This document shows positions 1,663-43,197 of a DNA stretch of 43,197 nt, one piece after another (positions within the stretch are counted from its first letter, which is position 1; each line of letters starts with the position of its first letter). The notes under the pieces are model-generated. The model was not told the DNA's origin and ran no database searches. It saw nothing but the letters and a program-made list of their open reading frames with translations. This stretch comes from a virus. The position numbers were made by a program, and so were the translations under genes. Where the stretch lies: positions 1-43,197 of IMG/VR virus record IMGVR_UViG_3300047277_000013; one strand, given 5' to 3'.

Positions 1663-2271
1663 TTACCAGTTGTTACTGAAGTAATGGCCTCCAGCTTCGT
1701 CATAATCAAGCATGATTTCCCTTGAGGCTTGTTCCCAGTCAATACAACTCTGAGGCCATACATTAGATTCCTCAAAACCACAATCAGTGGCTAGTTGATA
1801 AGCAAAGTCTTTATCATTTTCATACCAGCCACTATAGGCATCTTCTAGTTTGTCCAGTGGTATGTCTAAAGATAAACCAGCGTCAACTGCATCTTGTTCC
1901 ATATGACTATTTATAATGAAATCAATATATTCGTATATCTCATCGACATTGCCTGATTCACTATATAAAGACTTTGGAAAACCCTCGAAGTCTTGGAACA
2001 TAAACTCTGGGTCAACCTCATCACTGTGAAGCTCTTTACAAGCTGTGTAAAAGTCTTCTGAATCGACATAATCATCAAGGTCAAGCCATGCACCTTGAAT
2101 TGAACCATTGTTATACTTTGCGTAAGTACCGACATATAAACGGGGAGTGCTAACTAGTTTCTGAGGTTCTAACCCTAATAACAATGAAGTTTCTAAGGCT
2201 AGTTGTGCGTGGATAGCTTCTATTTCAGTTTTAGTTGCTACCAGTGTTGATTCATATTTGTTAGTGTTCAT
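1663..2271 (-). CDS. ardA: ArdA-family antirestriction protein
   Basis: 202 aa. The central part (about residues 42-135) has the ArdA pattern: TPRLYVGTYAKYNNGSIQG followed by WLDL, an acidic YVDSEDFY helix, and FMFQDFEGFP. ArdA proteins are elongated acidic DNA mimics that bind type I restriction-modification enzymes and protect incoming DNA. The protein is strongly acidic throughout, as expected for a DNA mimic. T7 carries the unrelated mimic Ocr (gene 0.3) as its first gene; here ArdA lies in the corresponding early position if the map is joined across the contig ends. About 45 N-terminal residues precede the core and may be specific to this phage. Confidence 0.9.
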   Translation of the reverse strand: MNTNKYESTLVATKTEIEAIHAQLALETSLLLGLEPQKLVSTPRLYVGTYAKYNNGSIQGAWLDLDDYVDSEDFYTACKELHSDEVDPEFMFQDFEGFPKSLYSESGNVDEIYEYIDFIINSHMEQDAVDAGLSLDIPLDKLEDAYSGWYENDKDFAYQLATDCGFEESNVWPQSCIDWEQASREIMLDYDEAGGHYFSNNW

Positions 2272-27921: not shown

Positions 27922-27950
27922 CTCTATACTCCAATTGGGCAACTAATACT
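27922..27950 (-). promoter_or_regulatory. Phage RNA polymerase promoter P3
   Basis: Minus strand AGTATTAGTTGCCCAATT then GGAG. It overlaps the stop codon of the ribonucleotide reductase gene and drives the structural operon. The predicted start is the G at 27932, which leaves a 13-nt leader whose first four bases form the ribosome site. Confidence 0.85.
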
Positions 27951-38339: not shown

Positions 38340-38510
38340 TTACCTTTGATGTCTATATTTAAGTTGTTCTACGTCATACCCTTGTTCCATCAGCTCTTTG
38401 TAGAGAGTCCGAGAGATGTCATTTCCTTTTGACCAGAGGTGTATTGCCATTCCTAGTGAGGATTGGTATGGTTCATCTTCCATTTCAGTTGGTTGATCTT
38501 TTCTTGGCAT
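38340..38510 (-). CDS. Hypothetical 56-aa protein
   Basis: MPRKDQPTEMEDEPYQSSLG, then MAIHLWSKGNDISRTLYKEL and a basic end. Start set at ATG 38510, one nt after the stop of the 32-aa membrane peptide gene; the frame extends to 38540. A soluble helical protein of unknown role in the first operon after RNA polymerase. Confidence 0.6.
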   Translation of the reverse strand: MPRKDQPTEMEDEPYQSSLGMAIHLWSKGNDISRTLYKELMEQGYDVEQLKYRHQR

Positions 38511-38511
38511 G

Positions 38512-38610
38512 TCATATGTACTCAAGTAAGAAAGTGACAACCAGCACCAGCCATGTAGCTAGTGCCAGAATGTTTAAAGTTTTAAGCAGGAGTAGCTCTA
38601 GTTCTTTCAA
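38512..38610 (-). CDS. Small membrane peptide with TTG start, 32 aa
   Basis: The frame starts with TTG at 38610 after AAGGA (spacing 5) and reads MKELELLLLKTLNILALATW then LVLVVTFLLEYI, nearly all hydrophobic: a single-span membrane peptide. It begins 37 nt after the predicted start at promoter P2 and ends one nt before the next ATG. The good ribosome site and coupling argue that it is real; it could be a membrane toxin or inhibitor. Confidence 0.6.
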   Translation of the reverse strand: MKELELLLLKTLNILALATWLVLVVTFLLEYI

Positions 38611-38630
38611 TGGATTCCTTGTGTGGTGAA

Positions 38631-38665
38631 AATATTTGTGTCTCTTCTATTGGGCAACCTATACC
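38631..38665 (-). promoter_or_regulatory. Phage RNA polymerase promoter P2
   Basis: Minus strand GGTATAGGTTGCCCAATA followed by GAAGAGACACAAATATT, identical over about 35 nt to P1. It lies right after the RNA polymerase stop and drives the first DNA-metabolism genes. The predicted start is the G at 38647. Confidence 0.85.
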
Positions 38666-38677
38666 TTGACGCAGAGA

Positions 38678-41194
38678 TTAAGCAAAGCAAAAACGAGAGT
38701 CAAGTATCCCTGCAAGCTCCAGCGTGCCTTGTTCGGGGGTCTCTAAGATTAAATCTTTTTTGTTATCTGGGAGACAACTTGTTACTTCATCTTTAAACAT
38801 GTTGAGGACATCTAGTTCACCATAGATTTCTAAGAAAGTTTCTCTTACTATTCTAAAGAGGTCTTCAGAATCACCTGCACATGTACCGAAAGAATCATGT
38901 ATAGCTGCGAAGCTCTTTATCTTAGATTGTTGTGCTCTTACAACAGTTAGAAGCATGTGAGCACCGTCACAACTATGGACAAAGTTAGGAGGTAGAGACT
39001 GTGAAGACTTTCTACGATCAATCTTATCTTTCTGGCGGTTCATCTGGCAGTAAACAAGCTTACCATTCAAGCTTGTCTTGATCTTCCTAGGTTCAACATC
39101 AGCGTAGTGTTGCATCACAGGAAAGCCTATTGCTGTAGTCCATCGAATAGGTAACTGCTCTGCACATATCACACCAGCTACTTTCTGTAGCCATGCCATA
39201 GCCTCACCAGCCTTAATTAACACTAGGTTAACTGAGTCCCAGATTAACTTAGCCATGTAATTCGCAGCACTATATCCATCGTGAACAAAGGGAAACACCT
39301 TATCACCACGCTCAGATGCAAACTTAGCTGGTCGAAGTATGTCAGCCATAATAGCCTCCTTAAATCCATACTGCTTAGACCCATAGGCTAGGGTCATCAC
39401 TGGGCGTTTAGTTACCTTCCTAGTGATACCAAAGGTCAACCACTGTTTAGCTAGTGACTTCGTTCCTTGGCTCATATAGGCACTACCATCTGCATTATGC
39501 TTAAGAGAATCTGCAGTACCACTTATAGAATCAATAGTTGCCTGTACAGTTACCTTATCAGCAACCAGTTGATATACATCAGCAGGTAAATCAGAAGGAA
39601 TCAAGTTGACAGCCTTACCACCAAAAGAATCCTTAAGCATTGCTGAGAAGTGTTGAATACCACTGCATGAACCATCGAAAGCTATAGGTAACTTAGAGAT
39701 AAAAGTATCACCAACTTCTAAGTAACCCTTCCACTCGAAGCAGAATGCTAGGAACTGCCAAGGTTTATCTATTTCAACATCACCTATAGTTCCACACCAG
39801 CCTCGATTAGTGTATGGGTCTGAAGCTATTGCATAGATTTCTTCCTCATGATCTTCTATGAACTTTATACGATCTTCAAAGCTTACTTTGTCATAGCCAG
39901 CTACGTTAGCACCTTGAACTGCCAACCATTTAGCACCTTCAGACCCTAATGGTTTAGCATCAGCAAATCTTAATAGAGCTTTCTGGTGGTCAGCACCTTG
40001 TGGATTTAACTGAGGAACAGCATAGACTCTACCTCTAAAGTCCAGTTGATAAGGAAAGTATATCTTTCGGTACTCTTGGTATCTCTTAGCGATACTTAAG
40101 GTTGTGCTGAAGCTAATACGTTGCCCCATCTGTTTCACATTCTCAGAGTAAACCTTAGCTGAAGCTATCTTCCATTCTTTAAGAGATATTTCATTAGTTG
40201 CAATGTCATAAGGTTTTGGTGGGAGTTCAACACCTGTTTGACAAGGTAAGCCAGCTACAGTTGATCTGGTAGACCATAGGTGATCCATTACTTCCCTTAC
40301 TTGACTATTAATTTGCCAAGCTGTTGACTGTAAAGCGTTAACACCCGCAAGGACTATAGGTATCTCAGTATTCTCAAGTTCCTCTAAGTAAGCCTTGTTA
40401 GTAGTCTTAACTAAACATAAAGGTGCTATGTTAGTTGATACATAACCACCATCAAAAGGTGTTGTCCAGAGTCTAGGACGGACAACCATAGGTTCATGAG
40501 TAGGTCGAAGCACTGAGAGAGCATTGTTCTTCTTGGCTATCCAATCAGCAGTCTTAGGTAATGCTTGAATGTAATTTGTGGTTTTACCGTTAGCATTCTT
40601 GATTAAGACTATCTCAACCAAACCTAACGTAGAGACAATCAAGTCCAACATCTTCATTCCGACATGTAGTCGAACGACTCTATCCCAGTTGTTCACCATT
40701 TGGTGTCTATCAGCTAACCGAATTGCATAGATTTGTTTGTTGTGATATGAGCTGCGTTTGTCGATACCCTTCTTAATACGTTCATAGAATTTCTTCTCGT
40801 TTAACCTAAGGTCATCTAAGCGTTGTTCATCTTCTATAGCTGTTCCTATAGATATAGCTATGTTCTGAAGTGATCTAACAGTAGAGATGCCACCTATGAC
40901 ATGCTTCAATGCTAGAAAAGAGAGTACTGGACTAGATATATCTTTAATGTACTTATAAGCAGAACCATTCTTAGTAGCTCCACCACTACCACTTGTTAAC
41001 TTCCAGTCATCAATAGCTATCGACAAAAGTTCAAGTCTAGCTGAGAGAGTTTGTTTACCATAAGCTGTATTGTCTTCAATACCTTTCTCTTTAGCTTTCT
41101 CTACATTCTTAAGATATCTTAAAGCTCCACGAGCTGTCATACCTTCTTCTAGTCTTATCTGTACTGCCATTAGGTCTTCTTTAGGTTCTAACAT
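38678..41194 (-). CDS. Single-subunit DNA-dependent RNA polymerase (T7 gp1-like)
   Basis: 838 aa (T7: 883 aa). Motif A LPIAFDGSCSGIQHFSAML holds the first catalytic Asp; motif B RKVTKRPVMTLAYGSKQYGF holds the Lys and Tyr; FVHSCDGAHML and AIHDSFGTCAGD (second catalytic Asp) complete the palm. The start at 41194 has AGGA 8 nt upstream; ATG 41170 is an alternative. It transcribes phage middle and late genes, most likely from the four GTTGCCCAAT promoters, one of which (P1) precedes its own gene. Confidence 0.97.
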   Translation of the reverse strand: MLEPKEDLMAVQIRLEEGMTARGALRYLKNVEKAKEKGIEDNTAYGKQTLSARLELLSIAIDDWKLTSGSGGATKNGSAYKYIKDISSPVLSFLALKHVIGGISTVRSLQNIAISIGTAIEDEQRLDDLRLNEKKFYERIKKGIDKRSSYHNKQIYAIRLADRHQMVNNWDRVVRLHVGMKMLDLIVSTLGLVEIVLIKNANGKTTNYIQALPKTADWIAKKNNALSVLRPTHEPMVVRPRLWTTPFDGGYVSTNIAPLCLVKTTNKAYLEELENTEIPIVLAGVNALQSTAWQINSQVREVMDHLWSTRSTVAGLPCQTGVELPPKPYDIATNEISLKEWKIASAKVYSENVKQMGQRISFSTTLSIAKRYQEYRKIYFPYQLDFRGRVYAVPQLNPQGADHQKALLRFADAKPLGSEGAKWLAVQGANVAGYDKVSFEDRIKFIEDHEEEIYAIASDPYTNRGWCGTIGDVEIDKPWQFLAFCFEWKGYLEVGDTFISKLPIAFDGSCSGIQHFSAMLKDSFGGKAVNLIPSDLPADVYQLVADKVTVQATIDSISGTADSLKHNADGSAYMSQGTKSLAKQWLTFGITRKVTKRPVMTLAYGSKQYGFKEAIMADILRPAKFASERGDKVFPFVHDGYSAANYMAKLIWDSVNLVLIKAGEAMAWLQKVAGVICAEQLPIRWTTAIGFPVMQHYADVEPRKIKTSLNGKLVYCQMNRQKDKIDRRKSSQSLPPNFVHSCDGAHMLLTVVRAQQSKIKSFAAIHDSFGTCAGDSEDLFRIVRETFLEIYGELDVLNMFKDEVTSCLPDNKKDLILETPEQGTLELAGILDSRFCFA

Positions 41195-41360
41195 TATTTA
41201 ATTCCTATTTATGGTGGTAATTAAAAGTTTCTTTAGTTCAGCTATAGACTCTTTAGGTTTCTTTAAGAATCTATAGATCAACACTTGTCTTTTTAAACAG
41301 ATTGAGTCTAGCCATAAGTTGTTGATAGTGTCTACCTTGAGTCAAGTAGTCGACACATTC

Positions 41361-41380
41361 TGGTACATAAAAAATGGTAC
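41361..41380. repeat. Left arm-type TGGTAC repeats
   Basis: Two direct TGGTAC copies (41361-41366 and 41375-41380), 14 nt apart, on the polymerase side of the attP core. Three more are on the integrase side. Same orientation, all close to TGGTACA, as expected for arm sites bound by a tyrosine integrase. Confidence 0.5.
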
Positions 41381-41385
41381 AAAAG

Positions 41386-41421
41386 AATATTTGTGTCTCT
41401 TCTATTGGGCAACCTATACCT
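41386..41421 (-). promoter_or_regulatory. Phage RNA polymerase promoter P1 (autogenous)
   Basis: Minus strand GGTATAGGTTGCCCAATA then GAAGAGACACAAATATT, the same as P2. Predicted start G at 41402, giving a 207-nt leader to the RNA polymerase gene. The polymerase would thus amplify its own expression. A terminator lies just upstream and an arm-type repeat 6 nt away. Confidence 0.85.
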
Positions 41422-41441
41422 CAAGGCAGAGAATACGGGAT

Positions 41442-41466
41442 AAAAAAGGGATATTATTAGTATCCC
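41442..41466 (-). terminator. Intrinsic terminator between integrase/attP and polymerase
   Basis: On the minus strand AAGGGATA and TATCCCTT pair across a 7-nt loop, and the stem runs into six T residues. It should stop transcripts that come through the integrase gene and attP before they reach the RNA polymerase gene. Confidence 0.75.
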
Positions 41467-41558
41467 TTAGTCCGCAATGACTGCGGTTTTATCTCTATAT
41501 ATTGTGAATCTTCAGTAAAACTGAAGGGTAAAACTAATAAATTCTTGTACTAAGGTAA

Positions 41559-41612
41559 TGGTGCCTCGATCCGGAATCGAACCGGAATGGTGTTACCACC
41601 GAGGGATTTTAA
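41559..41612 (-). other. attP: attP core: 3' part of tRNA-Leu(UAA)
   Basis: Minus strand from TTAAAATCCCTCGGTGG to GGCACCA is the 3' 54 nt of a tRNA-Leu: anticodon loop with UAA (TTAAAA), 3' anticodon stem TCCCT, variable arm GGTG-GTAA-CACC, T arm TCCGG-TTCGAAT... in form TCCGG/CCGGA, acceptor strand TCGAGGC and ACCA. No matching 5' half is present upstream, so this is not a full tRNA gene. Being next to the integrase gene, it is the attachment site: integration would restore the host gene's 3' end. Confidence 0.9.
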
Positions 41613-41664
41613 GGCTTACAATCACCATTAAGTACTTGAAATCATTGAGTTTAACCACCTCAAG

Positions 41665-41700
41665 TGGTACTACTTTGGTACAGATGACACACATTGGTAC
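41665..41700. repeat. Right arm-type TGGTAC repeats
   Basis: Three direct TGGTAC copies at 41665-41670, 41676-41681 and 41695-41700, on the integrase side of the attP core. The third lies at the centre of a 7-bp inverted repeat (TGACACA 41685-41691, TGTGTCA 41703-41709) that overlaps the integrase stop codon and might bind an excision factor or end the integrase transcript. Confidence 0.5.
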
Positions 41701-41706
41701 ATTGTG

Positions 41707-42759
41707 TCACACTACTTGTAACATTGGAACATAAGATTTCCTATAGTCATCCAAAGCATTTGTTCCTTCCAATAACTTGTTAGGTGCTAAGTGCATATAA
41801 CGAGCAGTTGTCAAGGGAGTTGCATGACCCATCCACATCTGAATGAACTGAGCAGTTTGATTTGACATAGCTAATCTTGATGCACATGTGTGCCTTAAGG
41901 TATGTACTACAAATTGTGGATCTTTTGCCATGTTCATTACACCTCTCATGGAATCCCATTGAGTCCTAAGAGTCTGAGGTGTCAAGTCGTCAAACAATCT
42001 GTCATTCAAACTGCGAGATTGTATGATCTTAACAACACGGAGGGTAGGTGGTACTGAACGAGCTTTAGATGTCTTAGTTTCATCCGGATGTAACACCATA
42101 AGATTGTGTCGATACTCTCTGATTCTGAAGTCTAATAATTCCATCCTTCTGAACCCTGTATCAATAGCACAAATAATGAAGTCAGCTAGTGCTAGTAAGC
42201 CGAGTTGCTTACAGGTAGCTAACATCCTTAACTCTTCTTCAGCATCGTACCAGCGGATTCTATGAGTCCCCTCTGAACGTCTCTTAAAGTAGGGTATAGT
42301 ATCCAACCATTGTTCCTGACATGCAGTCTTTAGCATCATAGAGAGAGCTGATAACTTAGCATTAACAGTTGACCCTACGTTGCCATAGGTATCTTCTAGT
42401 TCCTCCACCATCTCTCTTATTAACTGAGAGTTGATCTCTGATACAGGCATATCATCACCAAAGAATTTTAGGACAGGCATAGCACTCTTAATATGAGCGT
42501 TAGACTTGTTCTGACTCCAAGTATCTCTTAAGGTAAGTGTGTAAGCTTCTCTAAGAGTGTGCGAGCGTTCAAGTGGCGAGAGATAGGCTCTCTTACGTTC
42601 AACTAGGGACTGACTACTCTTCACAATCCCTAATCTTATAGCATCTTCAAGCTTTTCTGCTTTCACAGCGTCAGCGAGAGTTTTGAAGCTTTTACGGTAG
42701 CGTTCCTCTTTACTGCCCAGCGTTACAACAAAGCTTGAACCTCTTTTGTTGATAGCCAT
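41707..42759 (-). CDS. int: Tyrosine integrase
   Basis: 350 aa. An N-terminal arm-binding and core-binding part (to about residue 165) precedes the catalytic domain, with R in DTGFRRMELLDF, HTLRHTCASRLA (H-x-x-R), MGHATPLTTARYMHLAP (H and nucleophile Tyr). It should recombine attP at 41559-41612 with a host tRNA-Leu gene. GAGG precedes the ATG. It is encoded 18 nt after the winged-helix gene, so both are probably on one transcript. Confidence 0.95.
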   Translation of the reverse strand: MAINKRGSSFVVTLGSKEERYRKSFKTLADAVKAEKLEDAIRLGIVKSSQSLVERKRAYLSPLERSHTLREAYTLTLRDTWSQNKSNAHIKSAMPVLKFFGDDMPVSEINSQLIREMVEELEDTYGNVGSTVNAKLSALSMMLKTACQEQWLDTIPYFKRRSEGTHRIRWYDAEEELRMLATCKQLGLLALADFIICAIDTGFRRMELLDFRIREYRHNLMVLHPDETKTSKARSVPPTLRVVKIIQSRSLNDRLFDDLTPQTLRTQWDSMRGVMNMAKDPQFVVHTLRHTCASRLAMSNQTAQFIQMWMGHATPLTTARYMHLAPNKLLEGTNALDDYRKSYVPMLQVV

Positions 42760-42777
42760 TGTAGTACCTCACTATAG

Positions 42778-43104
42778 TTATTCCCCATCTCTGAGGAGGT
42801 CTTTTAAAAATAGTTTACCCTTGAAAGATAAGGTTAATATCTTTAGTCGTCTATCCATAGGATGTTCAACTGCATCAATTATTCCCATACCTTCTTCGTG
42901 TTTCCTATTGATTTTCCCAAGTTGCGCTAGGTTTCTGCTGGTATTTGCATTGCCTAGATTGAGATTCTTTGAAATTAAAGACAAAGTAGTGCCGCTTTCA
43001 CCAGCCTTTGCAACTTCTAATATGATTAGCATTTGTGATAAAGGGAGTTCCCCATCTAATTGCCTAAATTTATTTAGCAGTAATGTAACAGTCTTAAGTT
43101 CCAT
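42778..43104 (-). CDS. MarR-like winged-helix regulator
   Basis: 108 aa. Helices LSQMLIILEVAKAGESGTTL, then LISKNLNLGNANTSRNLAQL (helix-turn-helix with recognition helix around NANTSRNLAQL), and a wing VEHPMDRRLKILTLSFKGKL. This is a MarR-type fold without a long dimerisation helix. It lies upstream of the integrase gene and is the obvious candidate for a lysogeny repressor or early regulator. Its first 97 nt are also present at the left edge of the contig. Confidence 0.85.
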   Translation of the reverse strand: MELKTVTLLLNKFRQLDGELPLSQMLIILEVAKAGESGTTLSLISKNLNLGNANTSRNLAQLGKINRKHEEGMGIIDAVEHPMDRRLKILTLSFKGKLFLKDLLRDGE

Positions 43105-43197
43105 TGCTATTTATGTCCTATACGATTAATTAATTAATAGTCCTATTATAAATGGTAAACAGCTTGTAGATATGAATACATTTATAATCTTCTGTAT
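43008..43197. repeat. Right copy of terminal overlap
   Basis: 190 bases matching 1-186 with one extra 4-nt unit (ATTAATTAATTAAT against ATTAATTAAT). It includes the regulator's start and its upstream region with a minus-strand TATAAT at 43145-43150. The extra unit lies between that TATAAT and the regulator's ATG. Confidence 0.95.

Follow-up and report, generated by a model that had tools for sequence, protein, structure and literature searches.

Anatomy of an attP site between the integrase and RNA polymerase genes of a temperate-type T7-like phage, and the division of this gene order in integrated relatives

The integration region of a T7-like phage genome

The window, which is the whole stretch of 43,197 nucleotides that was analyzed, is a T7-like phage genome with nearly all of its genes on the - strand. 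Profile matches (Pfam and PHROG) identified a single-subunit T7-type RNA polymerase (RNAP) along with T7-like replication and packaging genes, in order, which places the phage in the Autographiviridae. The T7-like set comprises RNAP, a gp2.5-like SSB, a T7 endonuclease, an amidase, a T7 primase-helicase, PolA, an exonuclease and a T7 terminase. A preliminary description of this DNA had listed a regulator, an integrase, an attP core, a terminator, a phage promoter (P1) and RNAP in succession, and all of these elements are present on the - strand in that order (Table 1). A regulator and a tyrosine integrase directly upstream of RNAP, with a tRNA-derived attP core, is the gene arrangement of temperate T7-like phages (MarR-like gene, integrase, attP, RNAP), and the region is an integration and RNAP-control module of a temperate-type T7-like phage. 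The regulator has homologues in phages LUZ100 and YIMV22061 and at the integrase end of the Pseudomonas putida HAI-2 prophage, and the integrase is 46% identical to that of Bordetella phage BB8.

The ends of the contig overlap, with positions 1-127 equal to 43008-43134 and positions 118-186 equal to 43129-43197, and they look like a circular assembly cut at that point; the natural ends of the genome are probably located elsewhere, between terL (4401) and the early genes (2271). The overlap contains a 4-nt slip in an ATTA run and falls in the early region and at the 5' end of the regulator gene. Once the ends are joined, the early operon extends upstream of the regulator into approximately 2271-589, where an ArdA-like antirestriction gene and small genes are found. 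Thus, the early operon is longer than had been stated. The same region has a tandem repeat of approximately 39-90 nt at 602-844, which is located inside a small early ORF (589-918, - strand) whose product is repetitive and belongs to no known protein family.

Table 1. Features of the integration and RNAP-control region and of the early region, with window coordinates
Feature	Position	Strand	Details
ArdA-like antirestriction gene, early	1663..2271	-	Pfam PF07275, 2.7e-23; upstream of the regulator once ends are joined
Phage promoter P2, downstream of RNAP	38631..38665	-	exact copy of the 15-mer core at 38659-38645
T7-type single-subunit RNAP	38678..41194	-	PF00940, 2.8e-108; PHROG 414
Hairpin in RNAP leader	41236..41282	-	inverted repeat I1; covaries and folds equally well in L070
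Probable integrase arm-type sites, RNAP side	41361..41380	+	TGGTAC at 41361 and 41375
Phage RNAP promoter P1	41386..41420	-	repeat families D3 and D7; 15-mer core 41414-41400 shared exactly with P2
Intrinsic terminator in attP, RNAP side of core	41440..41468 (stem 41468-41446 plus six T)	-	hairpin and U-tract; covarying stem in L070
attP core, 57 nt	41559..41615	-	3' part of tRNA-Leu(UAA) from the anticodon loop to the CCA; matches the 55-nt core of HAI-2 in extent
Probable integrase arm-type sites, integrase side	41665..41700	+	TGGTAC at 41665, 41676 and 41695
Tyrosine integrase	41707..42759	-	Pfam PF00589, 8.8e-15
HTH/winged-helix regulator, of the kind called MarR-like in T7-like phages	42778..43104	-	PHROG 9665, 2.4e-16

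The tRNA-Leu fragment that forms the attP core is oriented in the same direction as the integrase and RNAP genes, a point that the preliminary description did not use. Five same-strand TGGTAC repeats surround the core, three on the integrase side and two on the RNAP side, and their outer bounds coincide exactly with 41361-41700. Only six further + strand copies occur in the rest of the genome, and approximately 0.05 would be expected in 340 bp by a calculation made post hoc. Judged from their sequence and placement these repeats are probably integrase arm sites, and relatives too have repeats that flank the core on both sides. Besides the exact copies in P1 and P2, variants of the promoter 15-mer core occur at 27944 and 4354, both on the - strand. 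A scan of 38500-43197 for sigma-70-like patterns returned 10 sites versus 12.3 in shuffled DNA, with just two weak ones between attP and RNAP. Since such sites are no commoner than in shuffled DNA, a host promoter between attP and RNAP, which the preliminary description had raised as evidence that would count against its model, was rejected.

Conservation of the layout and its split on integration

The closest relative that we found, L070, has an integrase that is 76% identical and an RNAP that is 61% identical to those of the window, and it retains the core and a promoter-like site, together with a terminator stem and an RNAP-leader hairpin that both covary. Scans of viral contigs yielded 103 unique intervals in which the same type of integrase precedes a same-strand RNAP. 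Of these 103, 50 contain a recognizable tRNA 3' end in sense orientation, and about as many are without a recognizable tRNA piece. The order of integrase followed by RNAP is kept across wide divergence and is also annotated in LUZ100, HTVC019P, P-SSP7 and RHEph01; the layout itself is already known from cyanophages, pelagiphages and LUZ100. Bordetella phage BB8 (RNAP 56%) and Limnohabitans phage YIMV22061 (RNAP 49%) are the nearest annotated relatives by both RNAP and integrase, but BB8 has no tRNA piece in its integrase-RNAP interval. Pelagibacter phage HTVC019P carries MarR, integrase and RNAP genes in the same order as the window, but its interval is shorter and no terminator was seen there by eye.

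The preliminary description predicted that integration at attP separates RNAP from the regulator and integrase, and examination of integrated relatives establishes that this split is real. The best cases are the P. putida HAI-2 prophage and a second, near-identical UViG, with ends that are approximately 40 kb apart. RNAP of HAI-2 starts at 600458 directly after host tRNA-Arg, tRNA-His and tRNA-Leu genes, while the integrase lies at 639010-640035 on the same strand, at an end composed of terL, small early ORFs, the regulator and the integrase. The tRNA-Leu(UAG) upstream of RNAP is intact, and a 55-nt copy of its 3' part follows the integrase and is itself followed by a host tRNA-His. UViG 2877794441_000004 exhibits the same split with 52-nt identical repeats; Rhodopseudomonas palustris XCP, AG-914-F14 and Xinfangfangia also have RNAP and integrase separated, and each carries tRNA repeats at its two ends. 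In OTTO1, which is split as well, a reversed tRNA-Leu lies at RNAP and a partial one at the integrase end, and a Polynucleobacter contig extends from tRNA-Leu and RNAP through to the integrase, ending at the core. Additionally, Endozoicomonas, Mucispirillum, two Bradyrhizobium and Paracoccus carry the integrase on the RNAP strand, 27-42 kb downstream, but clear att repeats were not found among them. In integrated relatives, one end of the prophage holds the restored host tRNA gene, the phage terminator, the phage promoter and RNAP, and the other holds the early genes, regulator and integrase. The split is present in every prophage for which both ends were found, and none of the prophages found kept the early genes and RNAP contiguous, the arrangement that the preliminary description had set against its own prediction.

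Two sets of sequences were considered and put aside. The sole bacterial contig examined that has integrase and RNAP contiguous, a 40.3-kb contig of Chelatococcus sambhunathii, seems to start and end in phage structural genes, has no host flank and no exact end overlap, and looks like unintegrated phage DNA; it was rejected as a contiguous prophage. Pseudomonas prophages with a more distant RNAP (G124, G284 and others) are without this integrase type. A search for the attP core, with at most 3 mismatches tolerated, across 369 genomes from the class that includes Polynucleobacter gave no match, and neither an integrated copy of the window phage nor its host was found by this search.

Insertion of HAI-2 (L006, L057) splits a host tRNA operon, with Arg-His-Leu before the prophage and His after it, such that the last tRNA-His is severed from the operon promoter. 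A HAI-2-type sequence, UViG 3300011372_000012, has the integrase followed by the 3' part of a tRNA-Leu, by host tRNA-His and tRNA-Leu genes that are both complete, and then by RNAP, an arrangement that reflects either tandem prophages or host DNA taken up through wrong excision.

A terminator that follows the tRNA 3' end

The terminator of the window has a folding energy of -8.7 kcal/mol (z -2.9) and, in a side-by-side comparison, is weaker (-8 kcal/mol) than that of HAI-2 (-27). It is situated 90-113 nt past the CCA and hence just beyond the 100-nt range in which terminators were sought in relatives by a simple hairpin-plus-U rule. Among the 50 unique intervals with a same-strand tRNA, 27 have a terminator no farther than 100 nt past the tRNA 3' end. 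The corresponding counts are 1 for the 100 nt upstream of the core and 8 for the reverse strand of the same stretch, and shuffled sequences predict 1.4. The 50 intervals are related by descent, so that the 27 cannot be counted as independent events. When the whole distance from core to RNAP is considered, a terminator is found in 34 of the 50 intervals, and the remaining 16 have none that this rule recognizes.

Phages with other tRNA arrangements are informative as to what the terminator belongs to. YIMV22061, which unlike the window has a complete reversed tRNA-Leu, and ProddE, in which the tRNA is also reversed, have the terminator on the integrase side, again past the tRNA 3' end; therefore, the terminator tracks the tRNA 3' end. 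Where the core is derived from the 5' part of a tRNA, no terminator is seen in four of five cases (P-SSP7 and AG-914-F14, by eye; L156 and L127), the exception being R. palustris, which has a terminator after a 5' tRNA fragment. Because the terminator tracks the tRNA 3' end and is mostly absent with 5' cores, the simplest origin is that it serves the restored tRNA gene, and from these placements the attP terminator probably arose in that role and doubles as an insulator of RNAP. A scan for additional phages with reversed tRNAs returned one locus that was already in the set. Pasto also has its tRNA-Leu reversed, but the terminator there is on the RNAP side.

Control of RNAP before and after integration

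As to how a self-amplifying RNAP could be silenced in temperate T7-like phages, we lean toward the reading that integration is a promoter swap behind a fixed insulator in attP, and not a silencing step by itself, in conjunction with a model of early leakage and a P1-driven loop. In the free phage, host RNA polymerase initiating at the early promoters would occasionally read through the terminator and make the first phage RNAP, which would then amplify its own expression from P1 in an autocatalytic loop. In the prophage, the early operon would read out into host DNA and no longer toward RNAP, and the host tRNA promoter would point at RNAP but meet the attP terminator, leaving the loop unprimed. 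The regulator, expressed from the far end of the prophage, may add repression in trans. As the tRNA core is co-oriented with RNAP, one upstream host promoter replaces another after integration; the attP terminator, rather than insertion alone, is the likelier agent keeping RNAP quiet in the prophage. Against this reading stand the weakness of the window terminator relative to that of HAI-2, the 16 of 50 relatives in which none was recognized and, if its reversed tRNA-Leu forms its attP, Pasto.

This combination can be compared with LUZ100, in which the regulator and integrase are co-transcribed from a promoter whose transcripts mostly end at terminator T4 after the integrase, with few passing it, and in which a phage promoter precedes RNAP (PMC10134795). 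Its authors propose sporadic read-through together with repression of the promoter by MarR; they obtained no stable lysogens and do not discuss how integration affects the gene order (PMC10134795). LUZ100 is like the window in its succession of regulator, integrase, terminator, phage promoter and RNAP, with homologous regulator, integrase and RNAP. It differs in that its integrase-RNAP interval yielded no tRNA core, and its tRNA-Leu is reversed and located before the integrase.

The cyanophages provide a second comparison. Integration of P-SSP7 and S-TIP37 into tRNA-Leu has been shown by PCR, but S-TIP37 engineered to carry a marker did not yield stable lysogens, and resistant colonies were found to contain no prophage of either phage (PMC8776855). 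P-SSP7 shares with the window the order of a MarR-like gene, integrase, tRNA-Leu attP and RNAP, but its core is the 5' part of tRNA-Leu and no terminator was seen before RNAP. Since P-SSP7 has the same layout and integrates, yet formed no stable lysogens in published tests, the split alone is not sufficient.

There is close to an even chance that the lysogen is instead maintained by a repressor, with the MarR-like regulator (or CI in ProddE) repressing the promoter before RNAP and the position of attP being incidental. The regulator and integrase are adjacent and conserved, their co-transcription in LUZ100 and the repression proposed by the LUZ100 authors fit this explanation, and Desulfovibrio phage ProddE (L253, 4867-5637) has a CI-like repressor gene, encoded on the opposite strand, that separates integrase from RNAP, an argument that at least one lineage requires a repressor. 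However, no operator was identified in the window: TCTATAG near the RNAP start was tried as an operator for the regulator and rejected, as this motif is spread genome-wide, and no P-SSP7 prophage was recovered from resistant colonies although this phage has a MarR-like gene. The conserved element before RNAP is better read as the leader hairpin than as an operator, and that hairpin may be a site for RNase III type processing of the sort seen in T7 early mRNA. The gene numbering of the ProddE record begins at its repressor, as if in prophage order.

It is rather unlikely that the arrangement has no control function at all, with attP adjoining the integrase as is usual and the terminator only restoring the tRNA gene. 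Such an explanation accounts for a terminator that follows the tRNA 3' end whichever way the tRNA points and is absent from most attP sites with a 5' tRNA part, but not for the R. palustris terminator, which stands where no tRNA needs ending, or for the retention of RNAP as the next gene over wide divergence. More doubtful still is the extension of the promoter swap in which attP is a built-in lysogeny switch, where the early promoter is exchanged for the host tRNA promoter behind a terminator whose strength decides between silent and failing integration. The contrast behind it, in which 3'-core phages with a terminator are found as prophages and cyanophages such as P-SSP7 without one fail to hold, is to be taken with equal reserve, and the link between terminator and stable lysogeny, which rests on few phages, is only suggestive. 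Least probable is the proposal of the preliminary description that integration itself silences RNAP by cutting it off from early transcription and leaving it behind a promoter that depends on RNAP; the separation from the early genes is real and a self-dependent phage promoter does sit before RNAP, but the host tRNA gene and promoter take the place of the early promoter, the terminator, lying on the RNAP side of attP, would shield RNAP before and after integration alike, and T7-like cyanophages with the same topology integrated without stable lysogeny.

A terminator after the tRNA end in attP is a simple genomic mark for many integrase-bearing T7-like genomes, and it may separate lysogenizing phages from those that integrate only briefly. 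The split may already have been discussed in the literature.

The preliminary description also likened the locus to the integration-dependent immunity of mycobacteriophages, which in phage BPs depends on an attP inside the repressor gene (PMC4557955). The likeness is partial. In both cases integration at attP alters which regulatory parts are joined, but the window attP is intergenic, with the regulator ending at 42778 and the core occupying 41615-41559, and integration alters no reading frame and changes only the upstream transcription context of RNAP.
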